From a virus: a stretch of 64,000 nt of DNA. The translations under genes and the position numbers were made by a program. The notes below the pieces were generated by a model. The model worked only from the letters and a program-made list of their open reading frames with translations, made no database searches and was not told the DNA's origin. Of the stretch, positions 5,551-62,584 are shown one piece after another; the stretch's first letter is position 1, and each line of letters opens with the position of its first letter. Where the stretch lies: positions 1-64,000 of the IMG/VR virus record IMGVR_UViG_3300008117_008509; one strand, given 5' to 3'.

Positions 5551-5823
5551 CTAAGCTTCCTGTAAAAAACTCAACATAATATCAATGTTTTCTTTTGAAA
5601 ATCCGTCTAAAGGAGTACCTCCGGATTTCAGATAGTTATTGTGCAATTCATTATACTCATCTTCAGTATAAAAATTACCATCAATTCCCTCAATTACATT
5701 AGTGTGGTGTGAAGATATAGTTTTATTTTGAAGTCTGGTTTCTCCATAAGCAGGACCAACAGGACCAACTAATTCAGTACCAGATATTTCTTCATTAAAT
5801 TGTTTCCATTTTTTAATCTTCAT
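5551..5823 (-). CDS. Small protein with capsid-targeting-like N-terminus
   Basis: A 90-residue protein beginning MKIKKWKQFNEEIS, one of about eleven proteins in this window that start with a short basic/aromatic stretch ending in FxE or LxE. This resembles the capsid-targeting sequences cleaved from T4 internal proteins. The rest (ELVGPVGPAYGE, then a hydrophilic body with an acidic helix near the C-terminus) is not recognised. It overlaps the stop of the upstream gene as TAATG, so it is translated from the same mRNA. A packaged small protein is the favoured guess. Confidence 0.6.
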   Translation of the reverse strand: MKIKKWKQFNEEISGTELVGPVGPAYGETRLQNKTISSHHTNVIEGIDGNFYTEDEYNELHNNYLKSGGTPLDGFSKENIDIMLSFLQEA

Positions 5824-6272
5824 TAACTGGCTTCAATTTTTTCAAAGTACTCATCATGTTCTTCTAATGAATAATGGTCTTTCTTTAAGTTATATATTAA
5901 ATTATAAAGAAATTTTTCATGTAAATTATGTTTTATACTACCTTTCATGATAATTACTGATGAATCTTTCTCATAGTCATTTTCAACATCTATTATTTCT
6001 AAACCTAACTTACCATCTCTATCTGTTAAATTACAAATTACTTTTTTACCTAGTACTATCATTTCTTTTATTTTAGTAGAAACTACGCTTTTTGAAAGTA
6101 ACATATAATCTCTGTTATTAGATAATTGAGTTTCATTATAAAGATCTAAAAAATTATGTTCTTTTGATGTTAATTTAGACTTTTGACAAATTTTATTCAA
6201 AATTCTTTTAATCTCAATCTCTTTAAGTGATTCTCCAAGTATGTAATGTTGTATCATTTTTCTAATATTCAT
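5823..6272 (-). CDS. Hypothetical protein
   Basis: A 149-residue protein, largely helical by composition, with a central beta-like stretch (KKVICNLTDRDGKLGLEIIDVEN). No family recognised and no signal peptide or membrane segment. It starts just after a TATAATATATAAC box (about 6275-6287) and is the first gene of a leftward run whose next gene begins inside its stop codon (TAATG). Confidence 0.6.
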   Translation of the reverse strand: MNIRKMIQHYILGESLKEIEIKRILNKICQKSKLTSKEHNFLDLYNETQLSNNRDYMLLSKSVVSTKIKEMIVLGKKVICNLTDRDGKLGLEIIDVENDYEKDSSVIIMKGSIKHNLHEKFLYNLIYNLKKDHYSLEEHDEYFEKIEAS

Positions 6273-6334
6273 AAGTTATATATTATAAGAAGTATCTATG
6301 TTTTTTATATATACTTTGAAATTGAAAGTTTTTT

Positions 6335-9300
6335 ATGGATAAACAGTTATTAAAAGCTTTAGAGAATGTTGCCTTCGCTTTGGAAGACATGACGGAAGCA
6401 TTAAAGAATAGAGAAAAAAAAGGTGGAGGCTCTGCTACTGGAGCTGCTCTTACTAAAGGAGATTTTGGTGATCAACTAAAAGAAATTAGTGTTGAGATAA
6501 AATCAATCAAAAAAGACACTCAGGAGATACTTCGCCAACAACAAACAATTCTTTCTATGCAAAAGAAAAAGTCTAGTGATAAAAAATCTGGACTTTTTGA
6601 GGAAGCAGGTGGTGACAAGAAAAAGGAAAGTAGTCTTAAAAAAGGAGTAGCGACTATCATATTAATAGCGATTGCTGTATTAGCAATAGGAATGGCTTTC
6701 AAATTAGTCGGTAAAATAGATTTTCTTTCTGTTATTGGACTTGGATTAGCCATATTGGCAATTTCTTTTGCTTTTGAAAAAGTAGCGAAATTAAAACTCG
6801 AAGTAAAAGAAGTATTAGTTGCTTCTTTAGCATTAGTTCTAATGGCGGTTGCAATAACTATGTCTTCATGGATTTTAAAACTAATAACACCAATTGGATT
6901 CGCACAAATGGTTACAGCTATTTTAATTGCTGCAATGTTTGCGGTGATGGCATCCAAATTAGAAAAGGTATTTATTGCAGTAGCGGTCTTTCATAGACTA
7001 AGAGTTAAAAAAACTGCCTTAGTTTTAGCATTAGTTTCAATAGCAGCAGCAATTACCGCATCATCCTGGATTTTACTACTTGTAACTCCAATTGGATTTC
7101 TACAAGCACTCACAGCAATATTAATAGCAGGTGTTTTTGCAGTAATAGCATTCAACTTTGAAAAGATAGCACTGGGAGTAGCTGCCTTTGATAAACTAAA
7201 TGTTAAAAAATCAGCTTTAATATTGACACTCGTTGGAATTGCTACCGCAATTACTTTATCATCTTGGATTATGGCCTTAATTATACCTATGAGTTTCGGA
7301 AAAGCTATAACAGCCATTTTAATATCCGCAATATTTTTAATTATATCATTAAATTTTGAAAAAATTGCACTGGGTATAGCAGCATTTGATAAATTAAAAA
7401 TTAAGAAAAGTGTTTTATTACTCACTCTTGTTGGAATCGCTACAGCAATAACTCTTTCATCATGGGTGATGGCTTTAATTATACCTACAACACTATCACA
7501 ATTTTTGACAGCACTTGGAATAGCTCTATTGTTCGCACTTATGTCCTATGTAATGCCAGAACTAGCAGCTGGTTTATATATAATTGATAAAATACTTGGT
7601 AAAAAAGGAGTATTCTTATTCCCACTTGTATTTGTAGCAATTTCAGCTGCTATAATGCTCTCTTCTCACATATTAAATATGAGCGCTGACATTGCACTCG
7701 GAAAAATTCTACAGATAGCAGTATTTGGAGTAGCACTGGCTATTATTGTATTAGCAATGTTACCTTCCGTATTATTAGTTGGGGCGGTAGCTGCTTCAGG
7801 GGTTGGAGCAGGAGCAATAGGATTAGGTGTTTTAATGATACCACTAATAGCAGCTGCTATTATGGCATCTTCTCACATTTTGAATGCCGGAACGTATTCG
7901 AAATATCCAAGTTGGAAATGGTCTCTTAGTGTAGGACTATCAATGACTATATTCGGAGCAGCAGTAGTTGCTTTAGGAGCAATAGCATTGACAGGTATCG
8001 GAATCGCAGCGGTTGCTGCAGGAATGTTACTAGTTCCATTAGTTGCCCTATCTATAGTTTTAGTTGATAAAGTAATAAGAAAAGGTAAATATGATAAATA
8101 TCCAAGTTTAAAATGGATACTAAGTGTAGGATCTGTAATGACTGGATTTGCAATTGCTATAGTAGGACTAGGAGCTTTAGCACTGACAGGTATAGGGTTA
8201 GTAGCTGTTTTAGCAGGAGTATTAGTTGTCCCAATGATTGCAAAGACAATTGTTAAAGTAGATGGTATAATCAGAAAAGGTAAATATGATAAATATCCAG
8301 GTTTAAAATGGATATTAAGTGTTGGAACCGTAATGACTGCTTTTGGAGCAGCAGTTGTAACACTAGGTGTATTAGCAATCACAGGATTTGGATTAGGAGC
8401 AGTAGCGTTGGTGGCTGGCTCATTAGCGGTTTTACTGATAGCAGCGACAATTGTAGAAACTGATAAAATAATAGGTAAGGGTAAATATGATAAATATCCA
8501 GGTTTAAAATGGATATTAAGTGTTGGAGCAGTAATGACTGGATTTGGAGCAGCGGTTGTAACCTTAGGTATATTAGCTATAACAGGATTTGGCTTAGGAG
8601 CAGTAGCGATGATTGCTGGAGCTGGAGCAGTTATACTAATCGCAGCGACAATTTTAGCAACTGATAAAATAATAGGTAAAGGTAAATATGATAAATTCCC
8701 AGGAGCCAGATGGATTTTGAGTATAGGAGCTCTGTTAGCAATTTTTGGAGCAGCGGTCGTAACTCTCGGTATATTAGCTATAACAGGATTTGGATTGGGA
8801 GCGTTAGCTATTGTAGTAGGAACAAAAATGGTTCCAAAGATAGCAAAGACGATTGTTGCGGTAGATGAGATACTTTCAAAAGGAAAATATAATAAAGGTC
8901 CAAATTGGCAATGGGCCTCATCAGTTGGATCTTTAATGTTAGTATTCGGAGGAGCTATTCTTGGAGTAGGATTACTAATAGTATCTAGTTTAGGACTTGG
9001 ATACGTTGCCATAAAAGCAGGTTCAGCCGCAGTAAAACTAATTGCTCAATCAATTGTAGATGTTGCTGGTATTTTTGCAAAAAGTGGAGCTGTTTGGAAA
9101 CAAGGTCCAACTAAGAAGTGGGCTGAAGGTGTTTCAATAGCATTAGGCGCATTTTCACCTATTTATAAAATGTTGATGAGCGGTGGAATTATGTCTATAT
9201 TTGCTGGATCAGGACCAAGTCCTACGAAATTCGCAGCTGCAATAAGGACTATTTCTCAGGGTATTGTTGATGCTGCTAACTTCTTTGGAGCACCGGGCAT

Positions 9301-10480: not shown

Positions 10481-10503
10481 ACAATTTTAAAATAAAAAAT
10501 ATA

Positions 10504-10923: not shown

Positions 10924-10969
10924 ACTTTATCCCAAAATAACAATATAATAAAAAAATTATATTAACAAA

Positions 10970-18190: not shown

Positions 18191-18559
18191 ATGAGTAAAA
18201 TTTATAATTATGACGATTTTCTTAATGAAGAGTTTTTTAAAAAACTTTTTGGTAGAAATAAAAAGTCTGAAAAAAAATCCAATACTGATATATGCGTTGA
18301 GGAGATAATAAATTTTCTTGCAGAAAACGGAATTTACACATGGGATGATTTTCTTTATTCAAAAAAGACCGATAAGTATATTATAAACAAAATAATTGAT
18401 GGTTCTGCTCAAAATATGAAGGACGTTGAGGAAATAAGATTCAGACTAAGAATCGAGTTATCAAGCAGACAACAACTAAAAGAATGGATGAAAGAATTAG
18501 AAGCTCAAGAAGAGTATGAGAAATGTGCTAAAATTTTAAAAGCAATAAATAATAAATAA
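18191..18559 (+). CDS. Small protein with capsid-targeting-like N-terminus and UVR-like C-terminal motif
   Basis: A 122-residue protein beginning MSKIYNYDDFLNEEFF, where FLNE fits the [I/L]-x-E site of T4-type prohead protease. The C-terminal segment ELEAQEEYEKCAKILKAIN matches the UVR motif pattern (L-x-x-E-E-x-Y-E-x-A/C-A-x-L-R), a short helical hairpin used for protein contacts in UvrB/UvrC and McsA. A second small protein with a similar motif is encoded at 19781-19990. It heads a + strand run of three genes. Function unknown; packaging into the head is inferred from the N-terminus only. Confidence 0.55.
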   Translation: MSKIYNYDDFLNEEFFKKLFGRNKKSEKKSNTDICVEEIINFLAENGIYTWDDFLYSKKTDKYIINKIIDGSAQNMKDVEEIRFRLRIELSSRQQLKEWMKELEAQEEYEKCAKILKAINNK

Positions 18560-27670: not shown

Positions 27671-28204
27671 CTATTTTTGGTCTTCTTGTTTAATATTCTG
27701 TGTATTTTTAGTAATTTCTTTCTTTAAATCTTCCATTTTTTTAGTATGTTTAGTTTTAAAGTCTTGTAACTCTTTCATCTTATTGGCTATTTTAGCATCG
27801 TAACTACCCATTCTCGACTTAATATCATTCAATTTAAATGATATACGTTGTTTAATATCAGACCCCTGCGCTAAAGACATTTCACTATTAAAATCATCTA
27901 ATTTAATTTTATCATCTGTTTTATTTTTTTGAATATCAAATATTTCTTTTTGAAGTCTTAATAATTTTGTAAGTTCCGATAAAAACGGATTTTTATCCTT
28001 TTCTTCACCTAATATCTTTTTTAAACCTTCTTCAATTTCTAAATTATTAGAAGTGCTACTATAGAGAGATTCAATTTTAGACTTTTTTTGATTATATTCT
28101 AATAAATTTTGTGACACATCATTTGTCTGTTCCTTTGCAAGTTTAACATCAGGTTTATCAGTGTCTTTAATTTCAATATCTTCAAAGTATTTTAAGTATT
28201 TCAT
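27671..28204 (-). CDS. Coiled-coil protein with capsid-targeting-like N-terminus
   Basis: A 177-residue protein beginning MKYLKYFEDIEIKD, nearly identical at the N-terminus to the NFACT-R (MKYLKYFES) and SET-domain (MKYLKFFEN) proteins of this window. The rest is Lys/Glu/Asp/Gln-rich and predicted to be mostly coiled coil, ending in a very polar tail. Overlaps the preceding 958-residue gene as ATGA. A small internal head or core protein is the most consistent interpretation, by analogy with T4 internal and core proteins. Confidence 0.6.
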   Translation of the reverse strand: MKYLKYFEDIEIKDTDKPDVKLAKEQTNDVSQNLLEYNQKKSKIESLYSSTSNNLEIEEGLKKILGEEKDKNPFLSELTKLLRLQKEIFDIQKNKTDDKIKLDDFNSEMSLAQGSDIKQRISFKLNDIKSRMGSYDAKIANKMKELQDFKTKHTKKMEDLKKEITKNTQNIKQEDQK

Positions 28205-47139: not shown

Positions 47140-47853
47140 ATGGGAGAACTATATGAAAGACTAAAACTAAATAAGTTTGTAAAAAGCAATGACGTTCCAA
47201 GTTTTTTTAAGCAAAATTCTCTCGACTTCTATCAAAGATATTTAAAGTCAGATGATTATGTCAAATCAACTCCTGTCACAAATATTATAAAAGGTCAATT
47301 TTATTTTTTTCACTATAAAGATGACTCTAACTGGGTCAAATGGTCTCCTGTTTTTGTAGTTGATGTAAAAGTTTATAGTAATAAAATTATTTTACTATGT
47401 GTAAATTTTAATTTTCTACCTTTAGAGGTAAGAGTGGCTATTTTTGATAAGTATCTTACAGAAGCTGATTTTGAAAAGTGTGAAAGACTAAAAGGCAGAC
47501 ACTTTATAAAAGTTAAATTTGAGCCAATGTATAATGAGTTAAAAAGATTGAAACTAGAGTATTGTTTAATGGAATATAATGCTATTCAAATTGCTCAAGC
47601 ACACAGAATTCATTTTACATTACTACCCGAATTTCTTTATTCTCAACATCCAAAGAATAAATATGACCCTAAAAAACTTATTCAAATTTGGAAAAAGAAA
47701 GCAGAAACTTCTGTAGAAAGAGACTCTGAAATGTCACAACTAGCTATTGATGATCTATATAACTTTGATAAGGATTTTACAACAAAATTTAAAGTTTTAG
47801 AAGGACACATCAAAAGGATTAGAGCAAGTGCTCAAAAATATGGAAAAGGCTAA
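47140..47853 (+). CDS. T4-like conserved structural protein (tentative)
   Basis: A 237-residue protein with a beta core GQFYFFHYKDDSNWVKWSPV and ILLCVNFNFLPLEVRVAIFD. This is the pattern (...YYDxFPLVLPI...GxNFHYLPxxxRxxLLD) of a conserved virion protein in T4-like cyanophages. A Lys/Arg-rich C-terminal tail could touch DNA. It ends 4 bases inside the minus-strand gene at 47850. Role unknown. Confidence 0.45.
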   Translation: MGELYERLKLNKFVKSNDVPSFFKQNSLDFYQRYLKSDDYVKSTPVTNIIKGQFYFFHYKDDSNWVKWSPVFVVDVKVYSNKIILLCVNFNFLPLEVRVAIFDKYLTEADFEKCERLKGRHFIKVKFEPMYNELKRLKLEYCLMEYNAIQIAQAHRIHFTLLPEFLYSQHPKNKYDPKKLIQIWKKKAETSVERDSEMSQLAIDDLYNFDKDFTTKFKVLEGHIKRIRASAQKYGKG

Positions 47854-48182
47854 TCTAATAGATTGTCAATATTAAAGTCTCTATAAACTTGTTTTGTTAT
47901 ATCACCTAAACCAGTATCAAGTAATTTATCAAAATTTGAATCTGTTGAGTCAATCTCATAATCTTTAAGTGTTTCTAAATTTTTATTATACCACATATAA
48001 AAGAAATCACATGCAGTCTCAACTATATCTTCATAAGAAGGTTCCGAAACTGAATCATAAGCACAAAATAAAATTCTAACATCTAATGGCTGTTCAGTGT
48101 CATAGATAATATCAATTGATTTATTCCAATTTAAGTTTATAGTAAATCCTAATTTTTCAATTCTATCTAAATGATCAAACAT
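47850..48182 (-). CDS. Small acidic hypothetical protein
   Basis: A 110-residue acidic protein (high Asp/Glu, few Lys). No family recognised. It overlaps the preceding minus-strand gene by 8 bases and belongs to the run 49346-47850 headed by the DNA methylase. Small acidic proteins next to phage DNA-modifying enzymes are sometimes DNA mimics; nothing here proves that. Confidence 0.55.
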   Translation of the reverse strand: MFDHLDRIEKLGFTINLNWNKSIDIIYDTEQPLDVRILFCAYDSVSEPSYEDIVETACDFFYMWYNKNLETLKDYEIDSTDSNFDKLLDTGLGDITKQVYRDFNIDNLLD

Positions 48183-48405
48183 TTTTTAATATTTTACTAA
48201 GTTTATTCTCTCTTTTATCTTCTATTTCAATTGGTTCTACTATTATCTCACCGTTTGATATTCTAATTTCCCATTTGTTACCAGTGACATCATCAAGTAG
48301 AGCTAATTTTTTTATAACACAATAACCATCTGGTTCTATTCTAAGAACAGAATCACCAGTTGAACTATTCACATTAAATATATTAGGTTGAAGTTTAACA
48401 GTCAT
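48175..48405 (-). CDS. Small beta-rich hypothetical protein (tail-fibre-tip-like module)
   Basis: A 76-residue protein: NSSTGDSVLRIEPDGYCVIKKLALLDDVTGNKWEIRISNGEIIVEP. Two halves of this pattern (DxxVLRIxPDGxV...DDxTGxxWxIRxxNGxIxxEP) are common short modules in phage structural proteins. It overlaps the methylase stop by 1 base and the next gene by 8, so it is translationally coupled on both sides. Confidence 0.5.
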   Translation of the reverse strand: MTVKLQPNIFNVNSSTGDSVLRIEPDGYCVIKKLALLDDVTGNKWEIRISNGEIIVEPIEIEDKRENKLSKILKNV

Positions 48406-49346
48406 TATAGTTTAATACCGGTTTTGGGATCGTAATTCATAATTAACAACTCAATACCTTTAGCTTGTTCGGATTTTAAATCAGAGTTGTTTCCACCTTG
48501 AGCCGAACTTCTAAATACTTCTTTCTCTGTCCAAACGTATTTATCTTTAGGTAATAACTCTTCTAAAAGAGGAAAATAATAATAAGAAAGTGACCAACGA
48601 CACTTAGTCTTTTTGATTAACTCCAATAGTCTTCTATGAGAAGCTGGTCCAAACATTCCTTCTTTGTCAGCACCATACCAAAACAATCTTTTAGCGTCAT
48701 CTTCACCATTTTCATCTGGTCTGAAGTATGGTGGATCCAAATAAAGATAAGTATCTTCTGAATCATATTTTGTAATAAGTTCTTCAAAATCAATATTTAA
48801 GAAATCAGTAATTGATTGTAATTTAGGAGTATATTTATTTTTTTTCAATTTATCAATAAGAACTTCTAATTTCAAACGGTCTTTATCTTTTTTATAACCA
48901 TTGAAACCAGCACCTCGAGGATAAACAGAGTTATGAGCAGAAGTGATAAGAAAAGCATAAATAGCGGCTTTCTCAAAATCACCAATTTCAAAATTCATAT
49001 CATCTAAGAAATCATTTTTTTGATATTCTTTATAAATCTTTTTATAGAAATCCCATTTCTTTAATGGATCTGTTTCTTCTGTGAAAAGAAGAGTATTTTT
49101 TAAATTCTCTAAATAAGGTAGGAACTCCTCAGGTTGTGATGAACACTTGTATAAGTTCACCTGATGACGATTTTTATCATTATAGACAACTACATCGAAT
49201 TTAAGTTGATCGTCATCCATATACGTTCCCATTGAACCAGAAAAAGGTTCTAAATACGTTTTAATTCCAGTTTTTGGGATTTTTGTATTGATTAATTCTT
49301 GAAATGCTGAGGAACTCTTACCTCCGAAATAACTTATTACCGCCAT
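48405..49346 (-). CDS. DNA adenine-N6 methyltransferase, D12 (Dam) class
   Basis: A 313-residue enzyme. N-terminal YFGGKSSSAF (FxGGK, SAM-binding loop) with TYLEPFSGSMGT (motif I), and catalytic TYLYLDPPYFRP (DPPY, motif IV) at about residues 196-207. The class transfers a methyl group to N6 of adenine, often in GATC, and could protect phage DNA from host restriction. The last part (RSSAQGGNNSDLKSEQ) fits the family end. It follows the NADAR gene by 1 base. Confidence 0.88.
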   Translation of the reverse strand: MAVISYFGGKSSSAFQELINTKIPKTGIKTYLEPFSGSMGTYMDDDQLKFDVVVYNDKNRHQVNLYKCSSQPEEFLPYLENLKNTLLFTEETDPLKKWDFYKKIYKEYQKNDFLDDMNFEIGDFEKAAIYAFLITSAHNSVYPRGAGFNGYKKDKDRLKLEVLIDKLKKNKYTPKLQSITDFLNIDFEELITKYDSEDTYLYLDPPYFRPDENGEDDAKRLFWYGADKEGMFGPASHRRLLELIKKTKCRWSLSYYYFPLLEELLPKDKYVWTEKEVFRSSAQGGNNSDLKSEQAKGIELLIMNYDPKTGIKL

Positions 49347-50355: not shown

Positions 50356-50925
50356 TTAAAATGGCATATTATCATCTTCTAAACCTTCATCTAATGTAAA
50401 ACCAAACGAAAGTATTCCACCACCGGATTTCGATTGCCAAATGTCAAATTCAGCATCATATTGAGCTAATATATCTCTTTTAAGTTTGTTAGCTACTTCA
50501 AAAACTTTAATAATACTTCTAAGTGTCTCTTTTTTTGCCATATTAACTTCAATGACAATATCCTCATTTCTTTTTGCCGTAATCTGAACATTATCAACAC
50601 CCGAGTTTCTAAACATTTGACGAAGCAAATAAGTTAAATGTTGCACGTCATCATCATCATCATCATCATCTGATTCATATCCATAGTCATCATCTTCATC
50701 ATCGAATTTAGGATTTGATGATTTTCTCGAGTTATCACGCGTACTTTCATCGTCATACCAATCATCATAATCTCCATAATCTTTAGTAGAATCATCATCA
50801 TATCCATAATCATCTTCTGGCCAACGAGCTTCATTTTTCTTATTAGCAGAAAGTTCGTTATTAAGATGACTAAATTCGTCTTCTCTGATATTTTCTAAAT
50901 ATTTTATAAATGTTTTTATTTTCAT
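50356..50925 (-). CDS. Asp-rich protein with capsid-targeting-like N-terminus
   Basis: A 189-residue protein: leader MKIKTFIKYLENIREDEF (two possible cleavage sites, YLE and IRE), an acidic low-complexity middle of Asp/Tyr/Gly (YGYDDDS, DDEDDDYGYESDDDDDDDD; about residues 35-95), and a folded C-terminal domain with beta-alpha pattern (VDNVQITAKRNEDIVIEV). The polyacidic middle could bind cations or mimic DNA. Starts 1 base after the peptidase gene stop, so both are on one transcript. Confidence 0.6.
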   Translation of the reverse strand: MKIKTFIKYLENIREDEFSHLNNELSANKKNEARWPEDDYGYDDDSTKDYGDYDDWYDDESTRDNSRKSSNPKFDDEDDDYGYESDDDDDDDDVQHLTYLLRQMFRNSGVDNVQITAKRNEDIVIEVNMAKKETLRSIIKVFEVANKLKRDILAQYDAEFDIWQSKSGGGILSFGFTLDEGLEDDNMPF

Positions 50926-50926: not shown

Positions 50927-52468
50927 TTACTTTAGCTCTATTTTAAAATATGTTTCATCAAAGATTCCTAAATCCTCTATTTTGTACTTGTTAAGTATTG
51001 TCTGTATTCTTATAAGTGAATCATAAATTTCACCCATATCAGTCTCTTCTAAATCTAAACTAACAAATATTCTATCATCTTTACCAATGACCTTTACATC
51101 AATCCCAAATACATTCTTTTTAATCTCGTTTATAAGATTCTTATGTTTTGCAAATAATTCTTCATTATAACCAACCTTTCTTTTAATCGGAAGTTTATTC
51201 CAATCAACTTTAACAGAAGCCTCTGCTAACTTAATGAGGTAAGTCATATTTTGCATTTCTGTTCCTCTGTGTTCGTTATAATAACCAACAGATATATTAG
51301 TACATTCAGCAATATCCTCCATTAGAGAAGCCGAATCAGTATAAACACCAGTTGTATCTAATGAAAGATTTAAACCGCTTTTGTTATATTCGTCACAAAG
51401 TGCTTGTCCAAACTCATTTGAACAACATTGTCTTCCCAACTGATGAGTAATCACAGATGTAGTTCTTCTTCTATCAAATGATACACAAGCTTTAACATCA
51501 GTAAGATATTCACATCTATCATATATTGAAGAGAGTGCATTTGAACCAATTCCACCTCTTTCCTCACCAATAAAGAAATAGTAAATTCCCGGCACATTGT
51601 TAGTCATCATATATAACATAACAGCAGTTCCTGCTTTATCATCGGCTCCTAAAATTGAAGATCCATCAGTGTAGATATGCTCATCACCAGATCCAGTTTT
51701 AATTAGTCTAAAAGAATATCCCTCTTCCGATACTCTACCATTTGCTTGAAAAAGTTTAGTAGTTTTTTGCTCTCTATCGGCGGTATCTAAGTGACAAGTA
51801 AACATTATTGTTGGTTTATCACTTCCTATTATTTTATAATAATTACCAACTTCGTCTCTTTTTAAGTCTTTTGGTAAAAACTGTAATACTTCTTTTTCAT
51901 GTCTACAATCATCAAAATGAGGATAAGTTTTAGTAGTCAAAGACAGAAAAGTTGCCTTAACATCCTTTGGATTATAAGTAAAAGAAGGCACTTGTATTCT
52001 TTGAGCGGAAGTCGTAGATTCATCTCCGATATTATCAGAAACCATATCATTGTATTGATAAATAAAAGACTTTATTTCATCTTCAGTAAGAAGACCAGGC
52101 CAATAATATCTAAAGAACTTACCAATCTTCATATCAAATTTTTTACCACCAATAGTTACCTCAAAACAATAAGCCTTATTTGAAATTGTAACATCTGTAA
52201 TTCCTAAACCATTTTGATACTTAGATCCAGGCTCACCCAACCAAAGCATTTCAAATGCAAGATAACTATCATTATCTTCCATTTTCTTAAGAACTTTTTC
52301 TAATTCACTAGAAATTTTAATTCTAGCACTCCTATCTACGTCTTTTGGTGCTTCTTTTTTGAAAACATCTTCTTTAGATTTATATGCACCAGTTGGTATA
52401 TTTCTATTTGGATCAGTTATAGACTGTGTTCCAGCCTCAAATATTTGATTAAATTTAAATAAATTCAT
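50927..52468 (-). CDS. M20/M28/M42-type zinc aminopeptidase-like protein with capsid-targeting-like N-terminus
   Basis: A 513-residue protein. Leader MNLFKFNQIFEAGTQS (IFE cleavage-type site), a polar region to about residue 190, then a co-catalytic metallopeptidase: TCHLDTAD (first His-x-Asp, about residue 224), ILGADDKAGTAVML (bridging Asp, about 273), YFFIGEERGGIGS (catalytic Glu-Glu, about 296), DTTGVYTDSASL, and a final GYYNEHRGTE (His). All metal ligands look present. Such enzymes trim peptides from the N-terminus. An extra 190-residue N-terminal part and C-terminal extension are unusual. Driven by a TTAATATATAC element. Confidence 0.8.
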   Translation of the reverse strand: MNLFKFNQIFEAGTQSITDPNRNIPTGAYKSKEDVFKKEAPKDVDRSARIKISSELEKVLKKMEDNDSYLAFEMLWLGEPGSKYQNGLGITDVTISNKAYCFEVTIGGKKFDMKIGKFFRYYWPGLLTEDEIKSFIYQYNDMVSDNIGDESTTSAQRIQVPSFTYNPKDVKATFLSLTTKTYPHFDDCRHEKEVLQFLPKDLKRDEVGNYYKIIGSDKPTIMFTCHLDTADREQKTTKLFQANGRVSEEGYSFRLIKTGSGDEHIYTDGSSILGADDKAGTAVMLYMMTNNVPGIYYFFIGEERGGIGSNALSSIYDRCEYLTDVKACVSFDRRRTTSVITHQLGRQCCSNEFGQALCDEYNKSGLNLSLDTTGVYTDSASLMEDIAECTNISVGYYNEHRGTEMQNMTYLIKLAEASVKVDWNKLPIKRKVGYNEELFAKHKNLINEIKKNVFGIDVKVIGKDDRIFVSLDLEETDMGEIYDSLIRIQTILNKYKIEDLGIFDETYFKIELK

Positions 52469-52485: not shown

Positions 52486-52869
52486 TTAAATAGTGATTTC
52501 TTCCGCATTTATATAATCAACTTTAACTTGACCATCATTCATACCAGGTTCTTTTTTGACAAACTTTCTTTGACAATAAACCACTTTGACAGAAGGTTCT
52601 TTAGCTGCTTTTGAATTCTTTTTAGCAATTTCAGCGGCATATTTTAATATTTCAGGTGTAGGTAAGTTTTCTCTAACTCTTATAACAACATGAGAACCAG
52701 GAACACCTTTAACGTGCATCCAAATATCTTCATCCTCAGCAACATTAAAAGTTAAATAGTCATTTGATTTAGCATCTCTTCCATATTGTAGAAAAAAACC
52801 ATCAACTTCAATCTTTTTGATATCTGGGAATTTAGGCTTTTTACTTTCAAAATATTTCAAATATTTCAT
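52486..52869 (-). CDS. Stand-alone NFACT-R (RqcH-type RNA-binding) domain with capsid-targeting-like N-terminus
   Basis: 127 residues from the ATG at 52869 (the longer frame to 52908 runs into the terminator hairpin and is rejected). Leader MKYLKYFESKKPKF, then the NFACT-R signature: GFFLQYGRDAKSNDYLTF, DIWMHVKGVPGSHVVIR, the helix with AAEIAKKNSKAAK, and VKVVYCQRKFVKKEPG. NFACT-R is the domain of bacterial RqcH (and eukaryotic Rqc2/NEMF) that contacts the 50S subunit and tRNA during ribosome quality control; the NFACT-N catalytic-like part is absent. A free domain could compete with host RqcH. Confidence 0.85.
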   Translation of the reverse strand: MKYLKYFESKKPKFPDIKKIEVDGFFLQYGRDAKSNDYLTFNVAEDEDIWMHVKGVPGSHVVIRVRENLPTPEILKYAAEIAKKNSKAAKEPSVKVVYCQRKFVKKEPGMNDGQVKVDYINAEEITI

Positions 52870-52943: not shown

Positions 52944-54650
52944 TTAGTTAAGGAAACCAGCTGCATCTACAACTTTGATAGTCATAAATTGCTTTTGTGG
53001 GAACCAACCAACTTCAGCAACTGCATATCTACTTCTTAGTAACATTCTTGGAGCGAATGTAGCTTCAGAAATGATAGAGATTGACTGAGCCATTAAGTAA
53101 GGTACGAAAATGATACCTGGTTGGTCAGGATTGTTCTTTCTACCAAGAACGATTCTGTTGTCGTTATATTTCATATATGGATCAACATAGATTGAAATAT
53201 CACCAATTGAACCTACAGGGTAAAGTTGTCCAGAAGCATTCATTTTAGACTTCAACGGGTTAATTGTATAACCAGCGATATCAGATAGAGCTGCAGCAAG
53301 ACCTCCGTTTGTAATAACGTACTGAGCAGGACCTACACGACCTTCAGTTGCGATATAGTTAGAAGCGTGAGCAATCTTAGTGACAAGCTTTCTTTGAACA
53401 GCGTGAGTAGTTTCACCACCAGGACCACCTGTACCAACATAAGCTGTGTTTAAGTCGAAGATAGTCTTACCAGCTGGGTCACCAGTTAATGCTGCACCTG
53501 CTGCTGGAGCTGAAGTTCTGTTAAGATCACCTAATTCAAAAATCTTAGCAACGATTTGCTTAGAGATTGTTTGAGATAATTCATTAACAAGAATAGATTC
53601 CATTTTTTGAACGATATCCATACCTGTGTTAGCTTTGATATCTTCAATTTCAGTTCTTCTAAGAGCTGAAGATACTTCGATAGTACCAACTGCGATAGTT
53701 TTAGAAGAGATTTTTGGACCGATAACACCTGAGTAAGTATCATCATCATCCTGACGAGACATTGGGTAGTTTCCAGTAAATCCAGAAGCTCCTGATGTCC
53801 AGTTTGAAGAGAATCCAGGGATATGATCTTCAAGAGCTGATACTAATTCAACTGTTAAGTTAGCAGCACCTGGAGTAACAGATACAGTACCTACTGTAGC
53901 GATTTGATCAACCATTGACATAGTTGCATTGAAAGTGTTTCTTGTTTCATCAAATGACCAAAGAGCACCAGCACCACTATTAACAGCTGTATGAGATGTA
54001 TTAAATTGTCTGAAAGCTCTAAACATTGGATAACCATCAATACGAGAGAATCCTAAGAATTCAACAACACCCGCTCTAGAACCACCTGGATCAGCAGCAG
54101 CATTTACAGTTGAACCGTAGATGTTTGTGAACCATCTTCCTTGAAGACCACCTTGTGTTTGAGCACCAGCGTTAGCTGTCAAAGTAGCATTTACAGCAGC
54201 TTTCTGAGCAGCATCATCAACGTTTAATTTGAAAACTTGTGGTCTTTCATCTTGTTGTCCCAATCTTGTATCATCATATTGGAAGTCAATGTAAAGTAAG
54301 TCGATTTTTGGACCTGGAGAAGGTTTAACAGCAACAAGGTCAAGACCGATTGTTTGAGCTGCGATTTTCATAGCTACAGGTAATAGGTTTTGACCAACAT
54401 CACCAGAACCAGGAGTTCCTGTGTAGTTAGCACCTACTGTTGTTCCAGCAGGACCACCAATTACTGGGTTCAATACTGCACCCATACCAGCTACGTTAGA
54501 AGCGTTTACATACGCGTTCTCATTAATTGAGTGATACTCAGCATATTCTGACATCCAATCAAGTCTGTCTTCACCTGCTACACCCATGTTCTCAAGAACT
54601 GGAGACCACTTCTTAAGAGCTTTTGATTTGTCTATTCTAATGTGTGACAT
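52944..54650 (-). CDS. Major capsid protein (T4 gp23-like)
   Basis: A 568-residue protein (T4 gp23 has 521). N-terminal SKALKKWSPVLENMG matches the gp23 propeptide; SINE-NAYVNASNVAGMG shows the expected cleavage after Glu44 ([I/L]-x-E), followed by LLPVAMKIAAQTIGLDLVAV, the P-domain landmark. The C-terminal blocks SNYIATEGRVGPAQYVI and RIVLGRKNNPDQPGIIFVPY are shared with the short paralogue at 1414-2160. Codon use is noticeably enriched in C- and GC-containing codons, fitting an abundant protein. Mature protein predicted at about 524 residues. Confidence 0.92.
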   Translation of the reverse strand: MSHIRIDKSKALKKWSPVLENMGVAGEDRLDWMSEYAEYHSINENAYVNASNVAGMGAVLNPVIGGPAGTTVGANYTGTPGSGDVGQNLLPVAMKIAAQTIGLDLVAVKPSPGPKIDLLYIDFQYDDTRLGQQDERPQVFKLNVDDAAQKAAVNATLTANAGAQTQGGLQGRWFTNIYGSTVNAAADPGGSRAGVVEFLGFSRIDGYPMFRAFRQFNTSHTAVNSGAGALWSFDETRNTFNATMSMVDQIATVGTVSVTPGAANLTVELVSALEDHIPGFSSNWTSGASGFTGNYPMSRQDDDDTYSGVIGPKISSKTIAVGTIEVSSALRRTEIEDIKANTGMDIVQKMESILVNELSQTISKQIVAKIFELGDLNRTSAPAAGAALTGDPAGKTIFDLNTAYVGTGGPGGETTHAVQRKLVTKIAHASNYIATEGRVGPAQYVITNGGLAAALSDIAGYTINPLKSKMNASGQLYPVGSIGDISIYVDPYMKYNDNRIVLGRKNNPDQPGIIFVPYLMAQSISIISEATFAPRMLLRSRYAVAEVGWFPQKQFMTIKVVDAAGFLN

Positions 54651-54729: not shown

Positions 54730-56823
54730 TTAAATCTTTTTGAATCTTTCTAAAATAGCTTGAGCTTCATTATCAGAAAGTTTATCTTCTTGTATCAAAG
54801 TCTCGTGAGCAACTAATTTTTTAGTTACAGATTCATTCTTTTTGAGGTTTCTAGTTAACCAGAAATGCTCAACTTGTGATTCAGTCATTAAAACTTCAGA
54901 TGGATAAAGTCTAGCTTGTGATAAGATAGATTTTTTAGCTGATTCGTTCATTTGACTCCAGATTGCCTTAGTGTTTTCAGGCATTAATCTGATTACTCTT
55001 TCTTCTAGAGTTTCATTCTTTGTAGATAGAGCTTCAGCGATTAATGATAGAACTTCCTTCTGTGTAAAATAACTACTTTCGTTTATGTGTAGTTTAACAG
55101 TTTCTTGTTCTTCATCAGAAAGTGCATAAAAGCTGTCAACTTGTGACTTGTTTAAGAATTTTAAGAAATTCAAGTCAGTTGTTTCAGAAACTTTACGTTT
55201 TTTAGCTTCTTCAATAAGTTTATTAATTGACTCAGACAATTCAGAATCTTCGTGACCACTTACTTCATAAGAATTTGGACCACATTCTTCATCATCTTCG
55301 TTTTCATCTTCATTTTCATAAGAATAGGATTCTTCCTCTTCATGAGAAGGAACACCTTTATAATCATAATTGTTTTCATTCTCATCCTCGTCTTCTACTG
55401 CTTCAAAACCTGCAGCTGAAAGTGAAGGAAAATTCTCTTCTTCATTATTTTCAAATAATTTACCACCTTTAGAGTTTAATTTCTCAACAATCATTCCTTG
55501 ATAAGAAATTGATTTATCTAAATTTTCTGCGATATATTCTGAATAAGCGATATTATCATCTAAATGCTCAGCAATGTACTCAGAGTAAGCGATGTTACCT
55601 TCAACATGTTCTGCTAAATACTCAGAGTAAGCAATTGAATTATCAACATGTTCTGCGATATATTCAGAGTAAGCAATGTTTTTGTCTAAGTTTTCTGCGA
55701 TGTATTCAGAGTAAGCAATGTTTTTGTCTAAGTTTTCTGCGATGTATTCAGAGTAAGCAATGTTTTTATCTAAGTTTTCTGCTAAATACTCAGAATAAGA
55801 AATATTCTTATCAAGATTCTCAGCGATATACTCAGAATAAGAAATGTTTTTATCTAAGTTTTCTGCTACATACTCAGAATACTCAATGTTTTTATCAAGA
55901 TTCTCAGCTACATACTCAGTGTAATTAATAGCCTTTTCAAGATTTTCAGCTAAATAGTCATTGTGTTTAGCTAATTTCTCAGTTGTAGATTTAAGAGATT
56001 TGTTCTCATTAACCACTACCTGAATTTTCTCTGCTAAGTAATCTAAATACTTAACTACTTTCTCATTAGTTGTGTTTAATTCTTCATAGTATTCAAGCAA
56101 TTGCTCTAATTTCTTAGGAGCCATATCACCTTTAGAAATAGCAGATTTAACTTCTTTTTTAGTAGAAGCAATCTCATTTACTAGATACTTTGAATAATCA
56201 GTCAACTGTTTTTTTGTAACAAATTCGTTCTTGTTCATGTTGAATAATTCATTTATTTTTGACTCGTCGGACATTTCATATATCCTAAAGTTAGATTTTG
56301 GGTTAGTATAACCTAAAGATTCATTTAGTACCTTTACAGACATTTTAGCCGAAGCAAATCCTGGATCAGCAACGATGTCATATGTAAATAACTTCTTCAA
56401 AGAAACAGAACCATCCGATTCAGTGATACCAGCCGCTCTAGAAGAAACGAAAACTGGACAACCATCATCTACTAATGCTTTTGCCTCTTTACCCCAATAA
56501 GTACTTAGAAGTCTAATTTCACCTGATACAATATTTTGTTCTTTAACATATTGTGCCTTGGTGATTACGTGTGATGCTCTTGCTAACGAAGTGTCAAAAA
56601 CATCTGGGTGATCAAATTCACCGTAAACAGCACCTAAACTGCTCATTCTTTCATTTAACTCATCTAACGCTGGTAAGAATCTGTCTGCCGTGTAAATACG
56701 TTCATTACGGTTCTTCACACCAAATTCTGTGAAGGTTCCACCTAAAACGTAATCTTTTTTACCGGAAGCATTTTCTCGTATCAACGAACTAGTAGAGTTT
56801 TCTACGATTAATACTGGTTTCAT
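54730..56823 (-). CDS. Prohead protease fused to a repeat scaffold (gp21-gp22 fusion)
   Basis: A 697-residue protein. Residues 1-170 are a T4 gp21-type serine protease: GGTFTEFGVKNRNERIY, VYGEFDHPD (His72) and GCPVFVSSRAAG (Ser127). Residues about 180-290 are helical. About 290-455 hold eleven complete 14-residue repeats of the type YIAENLDKNIAYSE. This is two heptads per unit, so coiled coil, and each unit has an [I/L/V]-A-E cleavage-type site. An acidic linker (EEESYSYENEDENEDDEE) and a helical end follow. In T4 the protease (212 residues) and scaffold gp22 are separate genes; here one chain would build the core and then cut it up. It lies directly upstream of the capsid gene. Confidence 0.88.
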   Translation of the reverse strand: MKPVLIVENSTSSLIRENASGKKDYVLGGTFTEFGVKNRNERIYTADRFLPALDELNERMSSLGAVYGEFDHPDVFDTSLARASHVITKAQYVKEQNIVSGEIRLLSTYWGKEAKALVDDGCPVFVSSRAAGITESDGSVSLKKLFTYDIVADPGFASAKMSVKVLNESLGYTNPKSNFRIYEMSDESKINELFNMNKNEFVTKKQLTDYSKYLVNEIASTKKEVKSAISKGDMAPKKLEQLLEYYEELNTTNEKVVKYLDYLAEKIQVVVNENKSLKSTTEKLAKHNDYLAENLEKAINYTEYVAENLDKNIEYSEYVAENLDKNISYSEYIAENLDKNISYSEYLAENLDKNIAYSEYIAENLDKNIAYSEYIAENLDKNIAYSEYIAEHVDNSIAYSEYLAEHVEGNIAYSEYIAEHLDDNIAYSEYIAENLDKSISYQGMIVEKLNSKGGKLFENNEEENFPSLSAAGFEAVEDEDENENNYDYKGVPSHEEEESYSYENEDENEDDEECGPNSYEVSGHEDSELSESINKLIEEAKKRKVSETTDLNFLKFLNKSQVDSFYALSDEEQETVKLHINESSYFTQKEVLSLIAEALSTKNETLEERVIRLMPENTKAIWSQMNESAKKSILSQARLYPSEVLMTESQVEHFWLTRNLKKNESVTKKLVAHETLIQEDKLSDNEAQAILERFKKI
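55505..55965 (-). repeat. 42-bp tandem coding repeat in the scaffold part
   Basis: About eleven in-frame copies of a 42-base unit encoding Y-I/L/V-A-E-N/H-L/V-D-K-N-I-x-Y-S-E. Adjacent units near 55640-55770 are almost identical; outer units have diverged. The antisense reading frame is open by consequence and is not a gene. Confidence 0.92.
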
Positions 56824-57404: not shown

Positions 57405-57414
57405 TACAACTTCT

Positions 57415-59726: not shown

Positions 59727-60157
59727 AATTTTATAAAGTTGTAACTCAACACACTCAGTATGAGTTGGATAAATTATTGAAAAAAATGAGCTCTACAGAG
59801 GTAGAGTATATTCAAAGTCTATACAGTAAAATATCTATAGTAGAATATACAGACGAGAATAACTTTGAATGTATGTTTGCAATTCTAAATGATTATTTGC
59901 TAAAAAAGCTAGATATCCTCTACAATAGTTATAATTTAAAATTTAAATTGATTGATTTAACAAGACAAATAATCAATGACGATTTTATAAAAACAAAATA
60001 CTACAACAATTATCAAAGGAATGTCGAGGAAGAAATTTTATATTTGATAAAAAAATATAAAAAAGAATGGATTTCAAAAGATGATATCTTAGATAAAATT
60101 TTAGATAAAGGAATTGATTCTCTTACCGACTTTGACTTAGACATTCTTAACTCTTAA
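59723..60157 (+). CDS. Hypothetical protein in RNase R operon
   Basis: A 144-residue helical, Lys/Tyr/Asp-rich protein that begins 4 bases inside the preceding gene (ATGA). The segment KKYKKEWISKDDILDKILDKGIDSLTDFD resembles the C-terminus of the early protein at 31210-31653 (ILEKIFNFGINSLTKSEKEFL). The shared I-L-x-K-I-x-x-x-G-I-x-S-L-T-x-x-x-x-x-x-L core is a known motif at the end of several Bacteroidetes proteins. It overlaps the portal gene by 4 bases, tail to tail. Confidence 0.6.
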   Translation: MKFYKVVTQHTQYELDKLLKKMSSTEVEYIQSLYSKISIVEYTDENNFECMFAILNDYLLKKLDILYNSYNLKFKLIDLTRQIINDDFIKTKYYNNYQRNVEEEILYLIKKYKKEWISKDDILDKILDKGIDSLTDFDLDILNS

Positions 60158-61881
60158 AACTCAAATTCTCCTCCTTCAGCGGGCGCTTCTCCTCCTCCTT
60201 CAGCAGGTGCCTCTGGAGCATCTTGAGCTCCTGCTTGAGCTTCACCACCACCCTCAACAGGAGCTTCTCCACCTTCAGCCGGCATTTCTCCTTCAACTGG
60301 AGCACCACCTTCAGCACCAGGAGCAGCACCAGCCGCACCAGCAGCCGCTTTATTAGCGGCATCTTTAGCCCAATATCTTTGGTTTTCAGTTTTTTCTTCA
60401 GGTGTTAATTTAAAGACATTATCCATAATCCACTCAATGTGAAAATATGGTTGTTCTCCATTCATAATTCCGGTTAATGTAGTAACAGCCTCAGCTCTTT
60501 TAGCTAAATTATTTATTTTTTTCCATTCTTCAAAAATCTGATTAGTATAGAAAATGATATCAACGCTATTAACAAAAACTTCATCATCCTTTAACTCAGG
60601 AAACTCGATTAGCATTTGTAATTTAAGAGGCTTAACAATAATCTCTTTAAAATTTGCTCTCAATCTACTAATAAAATTATGAAACTTAATTTCATCTCTT
60701 GTCATCTCAGCGGCATCTGTTATTAAGTTACCACCACCCGAGTCACCCTCAAAACGAGTAAGTGGAATTTTTGAAGCTCTTTTAAGTCCTTGGTGAAACC
60801 ACTTTAACATTGTTTCATCATTTAAGTCATGTCCCTCTTGTTTAACGATTTCAAATCCCGGTGTTCCGGCATCTCCTTCTGGAAACCAGATTTGTTTGTT
60901 ATAGTGTAAGTGCTTAGACCCATTTATTGATAAAGTTCCTAAGGTATCATCCCATTCAACTTCCTCCGAATAGTCATGAATTAATTGACCTATCTGTTCT
61001 TCTGCTCTTTGACGAGATAAACCTTTAATTGGAATTGTAAATTTTTGCCAAATCATTGCATTTGTTACGTTCCACATAATTCTTGTTTGTTCAAGAATTT
61101 TTAATTGGTTATAAGGCTTGATTAATCCTTCCACATAAGAAGTTTCCGAATAATCATTTTGAGTGGAATATGATATATAAATAATCTGAGAATCTAAGAA
61201 AATTCTCCTAAGTTGAGGATCTTCTGGAAACTGAATCCAAAGGTGGCCAACATTTGGCTCATAAGCCGGAACTAATGTCTCGGGTCTCAATCTGTTGAAT
61301 CCGATAACATTTTTCTTTTTATCATCATAAATTATTTCAATTGCAATATATCCATCAATTAAGAAATCTCTCAACATATTCCAAGCGGTGATATTATCCG
61401 AGAATCCAAATTTTGTGTATAATCTCTCAAAAAATTCTTGATACTTATCTGTTATTTCTTGTGAATAATCAGTAGGCAGCGGTCTTGGTGAACAAAAGTC
61501 TTTATCCTCGTTATAAACTACTGTCTCATCTGATATAGCAGAAACAAAATCTCTAATTTCATCTTTAATTGAATACTCTCTTAAAATTCTTCTTTTATCA
61601 GCATATGACTTATCTAAATAAGGAATTGATTTTCTATTTAAAACTGAAGCAACAGCTCTTTGTGAAAAGAAATCATACATAGAATTACCCTTTGCTGAGT
61701 AAGGATCTTCATTGATTCCAATACCGACTTGATTTTTTATAATCATGTCATCATAGTTCATACCATAATTAGAAAGTGTTCTTAAGATTCTACTAAATAA
61801 TCCTTTATTTTCTATTGCTGAGTTATTTCCTATGAAATTCTGACCAAATCCTGATGTATTAAAATTGTTATAAGTAGCCAT
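60154..61881 (-). CDS. Portal protein (T4 gp20-like)
   Basis: A 575-residue protein (T4 gp20 has 524). Landmarks: ADKRRILREYSIKDEIRDFV, MLRDFLIDGYIAIEIIYDDK, RLRPETLVPAYEP, and ASKIPLTRFEGDSGGGN...EMTRDEIKFHNFISRLR, the gp20 stem and crown region. The dodecameric portal starts prohead assembly and channels DNA. The last 60 residues are a Gly/Ala/Pro/Glu repeat (APVEGGGEAQAG, PAEGGGEAPAEGG), unusual for gp20 and probably flexible. It carries its own TTAATATATAT element. Confidence 0.9.
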   Translation of the reverse strand: MATYNNFNTSGFGQNFIGNNSAIENKGLFSRILRTLSNYGMNYDDMIIKNQVGIGINEDPYSAKGNSMYDFFSQRAVASVLNRKSIPYLDKSYADKRRILREYSIKDEIRDFVSAISDETVVYNEDKDFCSPRPLPTDYSQEITDKYQEFFERLYTKFGFSDNITAWNMLRDFLIDGYIAIEIIYDDKKKNVIGFNRLRPETLVPAYEPNVGHLWIQFPEDPQLRRIFLDSQIIYISYSTQNDYSETSYVEGLIKPYNQLKILEQTRIMWNVTNAMIWQKFTIPIKGLSRQRAEEQIGQLIHDYSEEVEWDDTLGTLSINGSKHLHYNKQIWFPEGDAGTPGFEIVKQEGHDLNDETMLKWFHQGLKRASKIPLTRFEGDSGGGNLITDAAEMTRDEIKFHNFISRLRANFKEIIVKPLKLQMLIEFPELKDDEVFVNSVDIIFYTNQIFEEWKKINNLAKRAEAVTTLTGIMNGEQPYFHIEWIMDNVFKLTPEEKTENQRYWAKDAANKAAAGAAGAAPGAEGGAPVEGEMPAEGGEAPVEGGGEAQAGAQDAPEAPAEGGGEAPAEGGEFEF

Positions 61882-61903
61882 TTAAAAATGCTAAAATTTT
61901 GTG

Positions 61904-61914
61904 ATATATATTAA
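61904..61914 (-). promoter_or_regulatory. Late-promoter-like element TTAATATATAT
   Basis: TTAATATATAT on the minus strand, 22 bases before the portal ATG at 61881. Confidence 0.5.
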
Positions 61915-61936
61915 ATTTTTGATATTCCTCCAGAAA

Positions 61937-62584
61937 TTACTTTTTAATAGTTATTGTAATCTCTGCCTGTTTATCACCGTATCGGTCCTCTGTTATATTT
62001 TTCTCAACATCGAAATCAGAGAAATCTATTCCCCTAAAAAGACCATTCCACTTTCTATCAGTATAACTACCAGGTCCAAAACCATTACAATTTACAGTAA
62101 TTTTAAATTCTTCTTTATTTAATCTTTTCACAATACCATTTACAAAATCACTTTTTGCAGCACTTGTCCTTTTGGACATTTCATTGTACAATTTTTGAAC
62201 TTTGAATAAATCGCCTTCTACTTTTGCATTTTGAATAAAACAAACGACAATACCCCATTTCCAACTAGTATTAATTGACACCTGGACACTTTCTAAACGA
62301 TTTTTAAAAGATATAAGTTCATCTAAAAACTCCCAAAACTTATCATCAATTATCATTTCGGTGTAACCACCCATAGGTCCAGTTTTAAATGAATTTCTGA
62401 ATATGATATTCATTGAAGTATATCCCTCATATTCACCTTCTGTGATTGTTCTTGGTGGCTGAAAAGAATATTCAATATCCAAATCCTTTATAGGAAGTAA
62501 CATCTCATCTAACTCTTCTTTAGAAAGATCTGTTATATCCTGAGATTCATTTAAATGTTGTAAAAACTTATGTAAATATTTCAT
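61937..62584 (-). CDS. Hypothetical protein with capsid-targeting-like N-terminus
   Basis: A 215-residue protein starting MKYLHKFLQHLNESQ (LNE cleavage-type site). The body is mixed alpha/beta (FKTGPMGGYTEMIIDDKFWEF, WKWGIVVCFIQNAKVEGD) and not recognised. Its ATG overlaps the stop of the preceding gene by 1 base (TAATG). It lies between the portal and a nucleotidyltransferase-like gene. Confidence 0.6.
   Translation of the reverse strand: MKYLHKFLQHLNESQDITDLSKEELDEMLLPIKDLDIEYSFQPPRTITEGEYEGYTSMNIIFRNSFKTGPMGGYTEMIIDDKFWEFLDELISFKNRLESVQVSINTSWKWGIVVCFIQNAKVEGDLFKVQKLYNEMSKRTSAAKSDFVNGIVKRLNKEEFKITVNCNGFGPGSYTDRKWNGLFRGIDFSDFDVEKNITEDRYGDKQAEITITIKK

Follow-up and report, generated by a model that had tools for sequence, protein, structure and literature searches.

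The closest described counterparts of the proteins considered here are the internal proteins (IPs) of bacteriophage T4, which enter the cell by injection and act as inhibitors of GmrSD restriction enzymes (PMC12373910; this and the papers below are cited from excerpts). Their propeptides are 10-19 residues long, and the first ten residues of IPIII are enough for packaging, with residues 4 and 7 serving in targeting and residues 8 and 10 in processing (PMC9026906). The window analysed here is the whole stretch of 64,000 nucleotides that makes up bases 1-64000 of the 121,804-base virus record IMGVR_UViG_3300008117_008509 (the window record). It contains genes whose otherwise unrelated products begin with a short leader, 8-17 residues long. 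In the predicted proteins of the window and its relatives, this leader stands on unrelated bodies, ends at a common junction, is gained and lost between phages, and belongs to genes that share an upstream element with the head genes. The leader is interpreted here as a T4-type capsid-targeting and prohead-cleavage propeptide, the bodies behind it being packaged, cut free and injected, and this reading is given a probability of roughly 0.86.

Five metagenomic phages served as relatives: W01 (LR745206; 634,780 bases), W02 (LR756502; 642,428), W03 (LR756504; 636,363), W04 (LR756501; 735,411) and W05 (LR756500; 462,018). The capsid protein of the window is 77.0, 75.7, 53.1, 51.5 and 37.8% identical to those of W01 to W05, respectively, about 30% identical to those of Lak phages and 29% to that of Tenacibaculum phage PTm1. 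Judged by sequence, the 121.8-kb record is a fragment related to megaphages of 634-735 kb, and for phages above 634 kb the predicted hosts are Bacteroidetes (PMC7162821).

A shared leader on unrelated proteins

The genomes of W01-W05 and PTm1 were taken whole, with genes and their starts set by a simple codon-based caller. The leader model consists of a five-residue N block, a variable gap and a six-residue junction block, with three components, and scoring was held out, in that the tested genome was excluded from training and the window record was scored by a model from the four other phages. Proteins are called tagged at a score above 8 (strict) or above 7 (looser), while the clustering of bodies used earlier per-genome models at a threshold of 6. 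Shuffles place the share of false positives at score 7 at about 3-10%, and some true leaders are missed too: the W01 leader MIKKFYQFINE scored −3.6 in the first per-genome models, yet 11.6 in the later one, and W04 proteins such as that beginning MIKKFRIFE/NDEL (6.8; a slash marks the predicted cut) fall just below 7.

Scores above 8 were obtained for 130 of 928 genes in W01, 147 of 956 in W02, 45 of 910 in W03, 46 of 978 in W04 and 13 of 121 in the window record, where shuffled N-termini would give 2.0, 1.8, 2.2, 2.2 and 0.0, and internal Met residues 0.9, 2.1, 1.4, 0.5 and 0.2. Above 7, the numbers rise to 138, 167, 56 and 66 in W01-W04 (5.1, 5.1, 5.4 and 4.8 expected), and the W01-W04 model finds 33 of 663 genes in W05 (4.3 expected). 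The first-pass annotation, which had counted about eleven such proteins, was thus an undercount, as the related genomes hold 33 to 167 genes above this score. The same W01-W04 model gave 3 of 303 genes above 7 in PTm1 (0.7 expected) and, in 50 kb of the AT-rich phage G, none of 72 genes above 5. In 50-kb stretches of Lak-B1 and T4, none of 43 genes (three above 5, with 0.8 expected) and one of 66 (gp2), respectively, passed 7.

Two rules free of training were applied as well. A regular expression of the form given in the first-pass annotation matched 7 of 121 genes in the window record (shuffled mean 0.0, maximum 1) and 46, 56, 19, 0 and 13 genes in W01-W05 (shuffled means at most 0.1), the zero in W04 indicating that the form of the leader differs by phage. 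A looser, T4-style rule requires an early basic residue, next an aromatic one, and after it [IL]-x-E followed by any of S, A, N, G, D or E. It matched 10 of 121 genes in the window record (shuffled mean 1.6) and 72, 74, 41, 57 and 24 in W01-W05 (11.3, 9.0, 9.6, 10.0 and 8.5), and elsewhere 9 of 303 in PTm1 (2.0), 3 of 66 in T4 (0.6), 3 of 43 in Lak-B1 (0.5) and 0 of 72 in phage G (0.7).

The bodies behind the leader are largely unrelated. With leaders stripped, blastp at 1e-3 sorted 132 tagged proteins of W01 into 118 clusters, 156 of W02 into 133, 68 of W03 into 61 and 122 of W04 into 76, the last including one cluster of 30; in the whole window record, an earlier, W01-trained model at 6 picks out 11 proteins, whose bodies are likewise all mutually unrelated. 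At the DNA level, the third positions of the first codons are somewhat more alike in tagged than in untagged genes (0.43 vs 0.37 in W01, 0.48 vs 0.35 in W02 and 0.35 vs 0.34 in W04), while first and second positions are much more so (0.54 vs 0.31, 0.56 vs 0.31 and 0.44 vs 0.31). The upstream DNA of tagged and untagged genes is about equally dissimilar (0.38/0.37, 0.37/0.36 and 0.38/0.35 in the same three phages). The lesser likeness at third positions, together with the dissimilar upstream DNA, argues that a peptide is conserved and not a duplicated piece of DNA.

Outside these genomes, a viral collection of 2.9 million contigs holds 59 stretches that fit a degenerate MKYLKYFE pattern, some of them in near copies of the window; a scrambled pattern with identical composition fits none. 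At 64 of 65 viral sites, the frame meets a stop codon or the stretch ends within 30 codons upstream, and 60 of the 65 begin a frame of at least 60 residues; the exact leader precedes 35 distinct bodies that make up 22 unrelated families. Among 11.3 million bacterial and archaeal contigs, the pattern, which also allows Phe at position 4, gave 17 stretches, of which only four have a frame of at least 60 residues near the start, all of them MKYFKYFE and seemingly one small family. One viral contig (L410) carries four leucine-rich-looking bodies, as judged by eye, all behind MKYLKYFE.

The junction, the head genes and a shared upstream element

When aligned on the predicted cut, position P1 is Glu in 133 of 138 leaders of W01, 164 of 167 of W02, 52 of 56 of W03, 66 of 66 of W04 and 31 of 33 of W05, figures that lean on a model which itself rewards Glu. 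P3 is hydrophobic in 86-97% of W01-W05 leaders (86-94% when W05 is left aside), and P1' is mainly Ser, Asn, Ala or Glu. Evidence on the junction that is independent of the leader model comes from the major capsid protein (52944-54650, minus strand; phrog_138, E 2.9e-23), which has a predicted propeptide of 44 residues ending SINE/NA (54519-54650). Among 84 relatives, INEN lies near residue 44 in 82, and the other two have IHEN and MNEN. The equivalent site in T4 gp23, located by eye, is FLTE/A and ends at residue 65, and the propeptide of gp23 is described as 65 residues long (PMC9026906).

The neighbouring gene (54730-56823, minus strand) encodes a head maturation protease (phrog_207, E 1.9e-30, residues 4-229) fused to a scaffold-like repeat region (residues 262-433; 55525-56040, minus strand). 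This region consists of 14-residue repeats, nearly all of which carry Y[ILV]AE, a built-in row of candidate cut sites; 12 such motifs stand at distances of 14 or 28 residues in the window, and 11, 11, 11 and 12 in W01-W04. The portal protein (60154-61881, minus strand; phrog_213, E 6.6e-58) is without a leader. T4 gp21 (phrog_207, E 8.1e-76), gp23 (phrog_138) and gp20 (phrog_213) share their PHROGs with these head proteins, and the end of the leader, a hydrophobic residue, any residue and Glu before Ser, Asn, Ala or Glu, resembles both the INE/N of the clade's capsid proteins and the Y-[ILV]-A-E of the scaffold.

Tagged genes also share an upstream element. Among tagged genes with more than 40 nucleotides of upstream space, ATATATA occurs within 60 nucleotides upstream of 45 of 46 in W01, 50 of 54 in W02, 29 of 33 in W03 and 23 of 25 in W04 (147 of 158 in total), as against 94 of 287, 90 of 289, 90 of 388 and 106 of 340 untagged genes (380 of 1304). 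In the distinct upstream regions of the clade's head and tail genes it is found before the capsid gene in 55 of 59, the protease in 59 of 59, the portal in 44 of 49 and the sheath in 3 of 4, which groups the tagged genes with the head genes. For 48 of 54 untagged W01 carriers that were searched, the 25 listed of 47 PHROGs include portal, head decoration, UvsX-like, PhoH-like, peptidase and DNA methyltransferase families. For 110 of 200 untagged non-carriers, the 25 listed of 103 families include helicase, primase, exonuclease, sigma factor and elongation factor, along with peptidase and DNA methyltransferase, and no head or tail family by name. The element as a strict late promoter was partly rejected, given its untagged carriers of non-head families. 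Taken together, the short leader, the unrelated bodies, the hydrophobic-x-Glu end, the PHROGs shared with T4 and the upstream element of the head genes support the T4-like, capsid-targeting interpretation first proposed for these N-termini.

Tagged genes of the window, their cargo and the turnover of leaders

The N-termini listed in the first-pass annotation do occur at the eleven genes that it named, and ten of the eleven pass a score of 5, with values from 5.8 to 14.0. At 0.1, the LysM protein fits the shared leader only loosely. The 90-residue product of 5551-5823 (minus strand) has the leader MKIKKWKQFNE/E (5791-5823; score 12.2), with orthologues beginning MIKKFYQFINE/I in W01 (11.6) and MAIKSFKSFNE/E in W02 (3.2 only). 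The 122-residue product of 18191-18559 (plus strand) begins MSKIYNYDDFLNE/E (18191-18229; 9.3). The 177-residue product of 27671-28204 (minus strand) begins MKYLKYFE/D (28181-28204; 11.9) and has no family match better than E 0.016 in PHROGs or 0.054 in Pfam. An acidic protein of 189 residues (50356-50925, minus strand) begins MKIKTFIKYLE/N (50893-50925; 5.8) and has relatives with MKINKYKKFLE/KDNIRE and MKVKTFIKYLE/NIRE, and the 215-residue product of 61937-62584 (minus strand) begins MKYLHKFLQHLNE/S (62546-62584; 7.0), as compared with MKHLQKFFNYITE/S and MRYLENFVTYINE/S in relatives.

The LysM-like protein (28201-31077, minus strand; 958 residues) owes its name to a weak family match (E 0.034). 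It starts with MKYL and has a 35-residue candidate leader ending VYE/S (30973-31077), outside the short-leader form; by eye, the junctions of the window protein and three relatives read VYE/S, IYE/N, INE/S and IKE/E, each followed by a conserved body. The highest score, 14.0, belongs to a protein of 251 residues (38378-39133, plus strand; leader MKHIRTFE/S at 38378-38401), the tail of which is a long GQAQ repeat. Its W01 relative begins MKHIRTYE/N, and the W04 orthologue of that relative is without a leader. The adjacent 204-residue protein (39197-39811, plus strand; leader MKFIKTFE/S at 39197-39220) has an E8 that is invariant across 24 aligned sequences (the window, 21 of 70 loci found, W01 and W02), and its leader was modelled as a helix over residues 2-8 in a low-confidence model (mean predicted local distance difference test score 62.7). 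A by-eye suspicion that its body is an isochorismatase-type cysteine hydrolase was not confirmed. The best E was 0.25 against PDB sequence profiles and 0.3 with Foldseek, the best VIA Z was 5.8, and the body is left unnamed.

Three tagged proteins have clear family matches. A SET-domain protein of 150 residues (39819-40271, plus strand; PF00856, E 1.8e-11) begins MKYLKFFE/N (39819-39842); its W02 counterpart begins MRYLKTFE/S. In W03 and W04, the SET proteins reach scores of 2.0 and −8.9. A peptidase of 513 residues (50927-52468, minus strand; phrog_4191, E 1.4e-65) begins MNLFKFNQIFE/A (52436-52468). The NFACT-R-domain protein (52486-52869, minus strand; 127 residues; PF05670, E 1.4e-14), the gene of which adjoins the capsid gene, begins MKYLKYFE/S (52846-52869); here the leader noted in the first-pass annotation stands, with the start corrected to the leader Met at 52869 instead of the first ATG of the open reading frame (52908).

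Across the relatives, Pfam families at 1e-3 numbered 13 in 68 and 8 in another 68 proteins of W01, 16 in 80 and 12 in another 80 of W02, and 36 in 118 of W03 and W04 together (25 of the 36 listed), so that at most 89 of 414 scanned proteins can have a match. The proposal of a diverse enzyme cargo thus holds in part, SET, NFACT-R, peptidase, RNA ligase, NUDIX and PPK2 proteins being present among the tagged ones. The families on tagged proteins include SMODS-associated NUDIX, NUDIX, RNA ligase, 2'-5' RNA ligase, Acb1 and NFACT-R, and further SET, PPK2, DHH, HNH and methyltransferases. A search for Acb1 pointed to five places. Two matches exceed the cut-off, one on an untagged protein of W02 and one on a protein of W03 that scores 7.6 for the leader; a clearly tagged Acb1-like protein of W01 (10.4) reached 23.8 bits against a cut-off of 27. 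Of 136 W01 proteins, 68 were run through PADLOC, which yielded two leads: a DEDDh exonuclease (1.2e-12) and, with a weak match, a DnaG-like protein. A second motif, DP[YF]GEE, occurs within 50 residues of the N-terminus in 23 of 978 W04 genes (for example 475399-475854), 18 of them among the 122 tagged; it is absent from the same part of W01-W03 genes and recurs in another contig (L393) behind MKYLKYFE.

Within families, the predicted orthologues hold the junction constant while the length and sequence of the leader vary, and some bodies are tagged in one phage and untagged in another. The NFACT-R family has matches in 67 of 84 records searched, 61 of which have the E/K..FP junction, nearly always with Ser or Gly after the Glu. 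Its 39 distinct leader and junction forms, two of which score below 5, include leaders of 8, 10, 11, 12 or 13 residues with the Met, such as MKYLKYFE/SKK, MIKKFNSFNE/SKK and MRNLSTFKRFLNE/GKK. Where the short leader is missing (W02:229253-229942, L044 and L073), the junction, E followed by Ser or Gly and Lys, lies behind a longer N-terminal extension. In W01 and W02 the RNA ligase carries a leader, which it lacks in W03 and W04; the Acb1-like protein is tagged in W01 and untagged in W02. For the 50927 peptidase, 8 of 54 distinct relatives have a leader, and its tree requires at least three gains or losses even when only strongly supported branches are counted (two labels were set by hand). Such natural presence and absence of the leader on one body bears on whether it suffices for packaging, and is suggestive only. 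Among 422 reciprocal best pairs of W01 and W02, both members are tagged in 31, one in 21 and neither in 346, with 24 between the limits. Tagged W01 genes less often have a W02 orthologue than untagged ones (0.32 vs 0.50), and the median identity of orthologues is 45% for tagged and 56% for untagged proteins.

Another gene of the window, at 44814-45875, looks glutamine synthetase-like by eye; its PHROGs match is phrog_21628 (function unknown; E 7.1e-16).

Weighing the readings against known systems

On the T4-type reading, scaffold binding, cleavage, packaging, injection and early action are steps that we infer. The tagged proteins would be made together with the head proteins, and an N-terminal helix of about 8-17 residues would bind the scaffold core, pulling each protein into the forming prohead. 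There, the gp21-type protease, itself fused to scaffold, would cleave after Glu by the same rule as in the capsid protein and scaffold repeats, releasing the body into the head interior. The released bodies would be packaged alongside the DNA and, on ejection, enter the next host and may act there before phage gene expression.

Several observations, besides the circularity in the Glu counts, weigh against this. The T4 leaders themselves fall below threshold (IPII 3.7, IPIII 3.7 and IPI −0.8). In the main dialect (W01, W02 and the window), the aromatic residues are shifted, P4 is basic (0.62 and 0.58) where T4 has Phe, and P3 is not hydrophobic in 14%. Four NFACT-R records, of three forms, keep the junction without a short leader, and 6 of the 67 have neither; these six begin differently and match the family only further along the protein. 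Less cargo-like families also occur on tagged proteins, among them phage lysozyme, aminotransferase and RNB. Some of the W03 and W04 matches probably sit on false positives, and a W03 protein (447700-449505), probably the one with the RNB match, looks false, its predicted cut lacking Glu; one of the window record's 13, the 42970 protein, with no Glu at the cut, is probably another. The ATATATA element is not exclusive, being carried by untagged UvsX-like, PhoH-like and DNA methyltransferase families, and its distance to the ATG in W01 and W02 differs, with a median of 5 nucleotides for tagged and about 20 for untagged genes; ending so close to the start, it may leave the mRNA of tagged genes nearly leaderless. 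Finally, no virion data were found for this clade.

Of the alternatives, the one that survives best, though unlikely, accepts targeting and cleavage and supposes that the cargo mostly stays in the head or serves assembly, as core or inner-body protein, with little injected or active in the host. The capsid-adjacent NFACT-R protein, so common in the clade with its junction, would suit such a role, and T4 core proteins are likewise cut (PMC9026906). Against it, tagged genes are poorly conserved between W01 and W02, and several encode enzymatic or counter-defence-like domains. Distinctly less probable is a leader that targets an intracellular site, such as a replication compartment, a membrane or a host target, unrelated to the head, with the Glu junction as the end of a binding helix. 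Several kinds of enzyme carry the leader, a short helix (as in the low-confidence model) could bind anything, and the main dialect lacks exact T4 spacing, all of which, with the missing virion data, this explanation would accommodate. It sits poorly with a junction that equals the clade's capsid site and scaffold repeats and stays constant as leader length changes, and with the head-gene element upstream of tagged genes. An artefact, whether of the context of start codons, of AT-richness or of a single 5' end duplicated recently, for which Lys-rich leaders, AT-rich genomes and the somewhat more alike third codon positions might speak, was rejected, as far as sequence can decide, on the shuffled and internal-Met controls, AT-rich phage G, the codon and upstream comparisons, the unrelated bodies and the matchless scrambled peptide.

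It is on balance probable that the largest known phages load each head with about 50 to 170 mostly unrelated proteins by one interchangeable N-terminal code, which takes its own form in each phage and is removed on maturation. Any protein could then be recruited by gaining 8-13 residues, so that the head may serve as a general protein-delivery vehicle. The cargo would amount to a first-strike kit of RNA repair, Acb1-like and NUDIX enzymes, methyltransferases, SET proteins and a peptidase, plus many unknown effectors. Hundreds of hypothetical megaphage genes would fall into a single predicted class, that of proteins delivered as infection begins, which a simple sequence rule can list. Tad1 is described in a 2026 review as the only anti-defence protein so far known from jumbo phages (PMC13282480), and the leader would give a direct list of further candidates. 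It also suggests one advantage of very large heads, and leaders could be tried as protein-packaging tags. The T4-type signal itself is already known; for its apparent scale of use per genome no earlier report was found, no title or abstract start describing such leaders in huge phages, in a literature search that left subscription journals and most preprints uncovered.

Among other giant phages, phiKZ and SPN3US resemble this clade in their large head load and many prohead-protease cuts of inner-body and ejection proteins (PMC13282480, PMC9026906, PMC7411985); they differ, by description only, in that a short shared leader is not described in the excerpts of those papers. PTm1 has an annotated "prohead core scaffolding protein and protease" (phrog_207) beside its capsid gene, and differs in having few leader-like N-termini by either measure. 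By eye, among 180 genes, Lak-B1 (L291, L293-L295) has an apparent N-terminal form of its own, ending NE or ES, and one body carries this form at different lengths. In T4 itself, gp2 (MAIFQIINE/ST; 8.7) and gp24 (MAKINELLRE/ST; 5.7) resemble the leader and cut rule (L290:16061-16885 and 47323-48606).

The T4 IPs differ from the megaphage proteins in number, with three in T4 and at least ten reported in related phages (PMC12373910) against 56 to 167 genes above 7 in W01-W04. They differ also in that the megaphage leader varies by phage, with T4 leaders below its threshold, and in that the megaphage protease is fused to scaffold. Aromatic residues at P7 and P4 have frequencies of 0.52 and 0.52 in W05, 0.45 and 0.53 in W04, 0.32 and 0.16 in W01, and 0.20 and 0.13 in W02, and in the W05 dialect, MKYIKEYEDFINE/A, the spacing of Tyr, Phe, Ile and Glu is exactly that of T4. 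Because this spacing is kept in W05, partly kept by the aromatic residues of W04 and shifted in the window dialect, the leader is called capsid-targeting-sequence-like, and full membership is not claimed. With IPI-IPIII (MKTYQEFIAE/A, cut by gp21) it nevertheless has in common a short N-terminal propeptide on unrelated bodies, a hydrophobic-x-Glu end, a protease and a capsid protein of the same PHROGs, and an unstable gene content.

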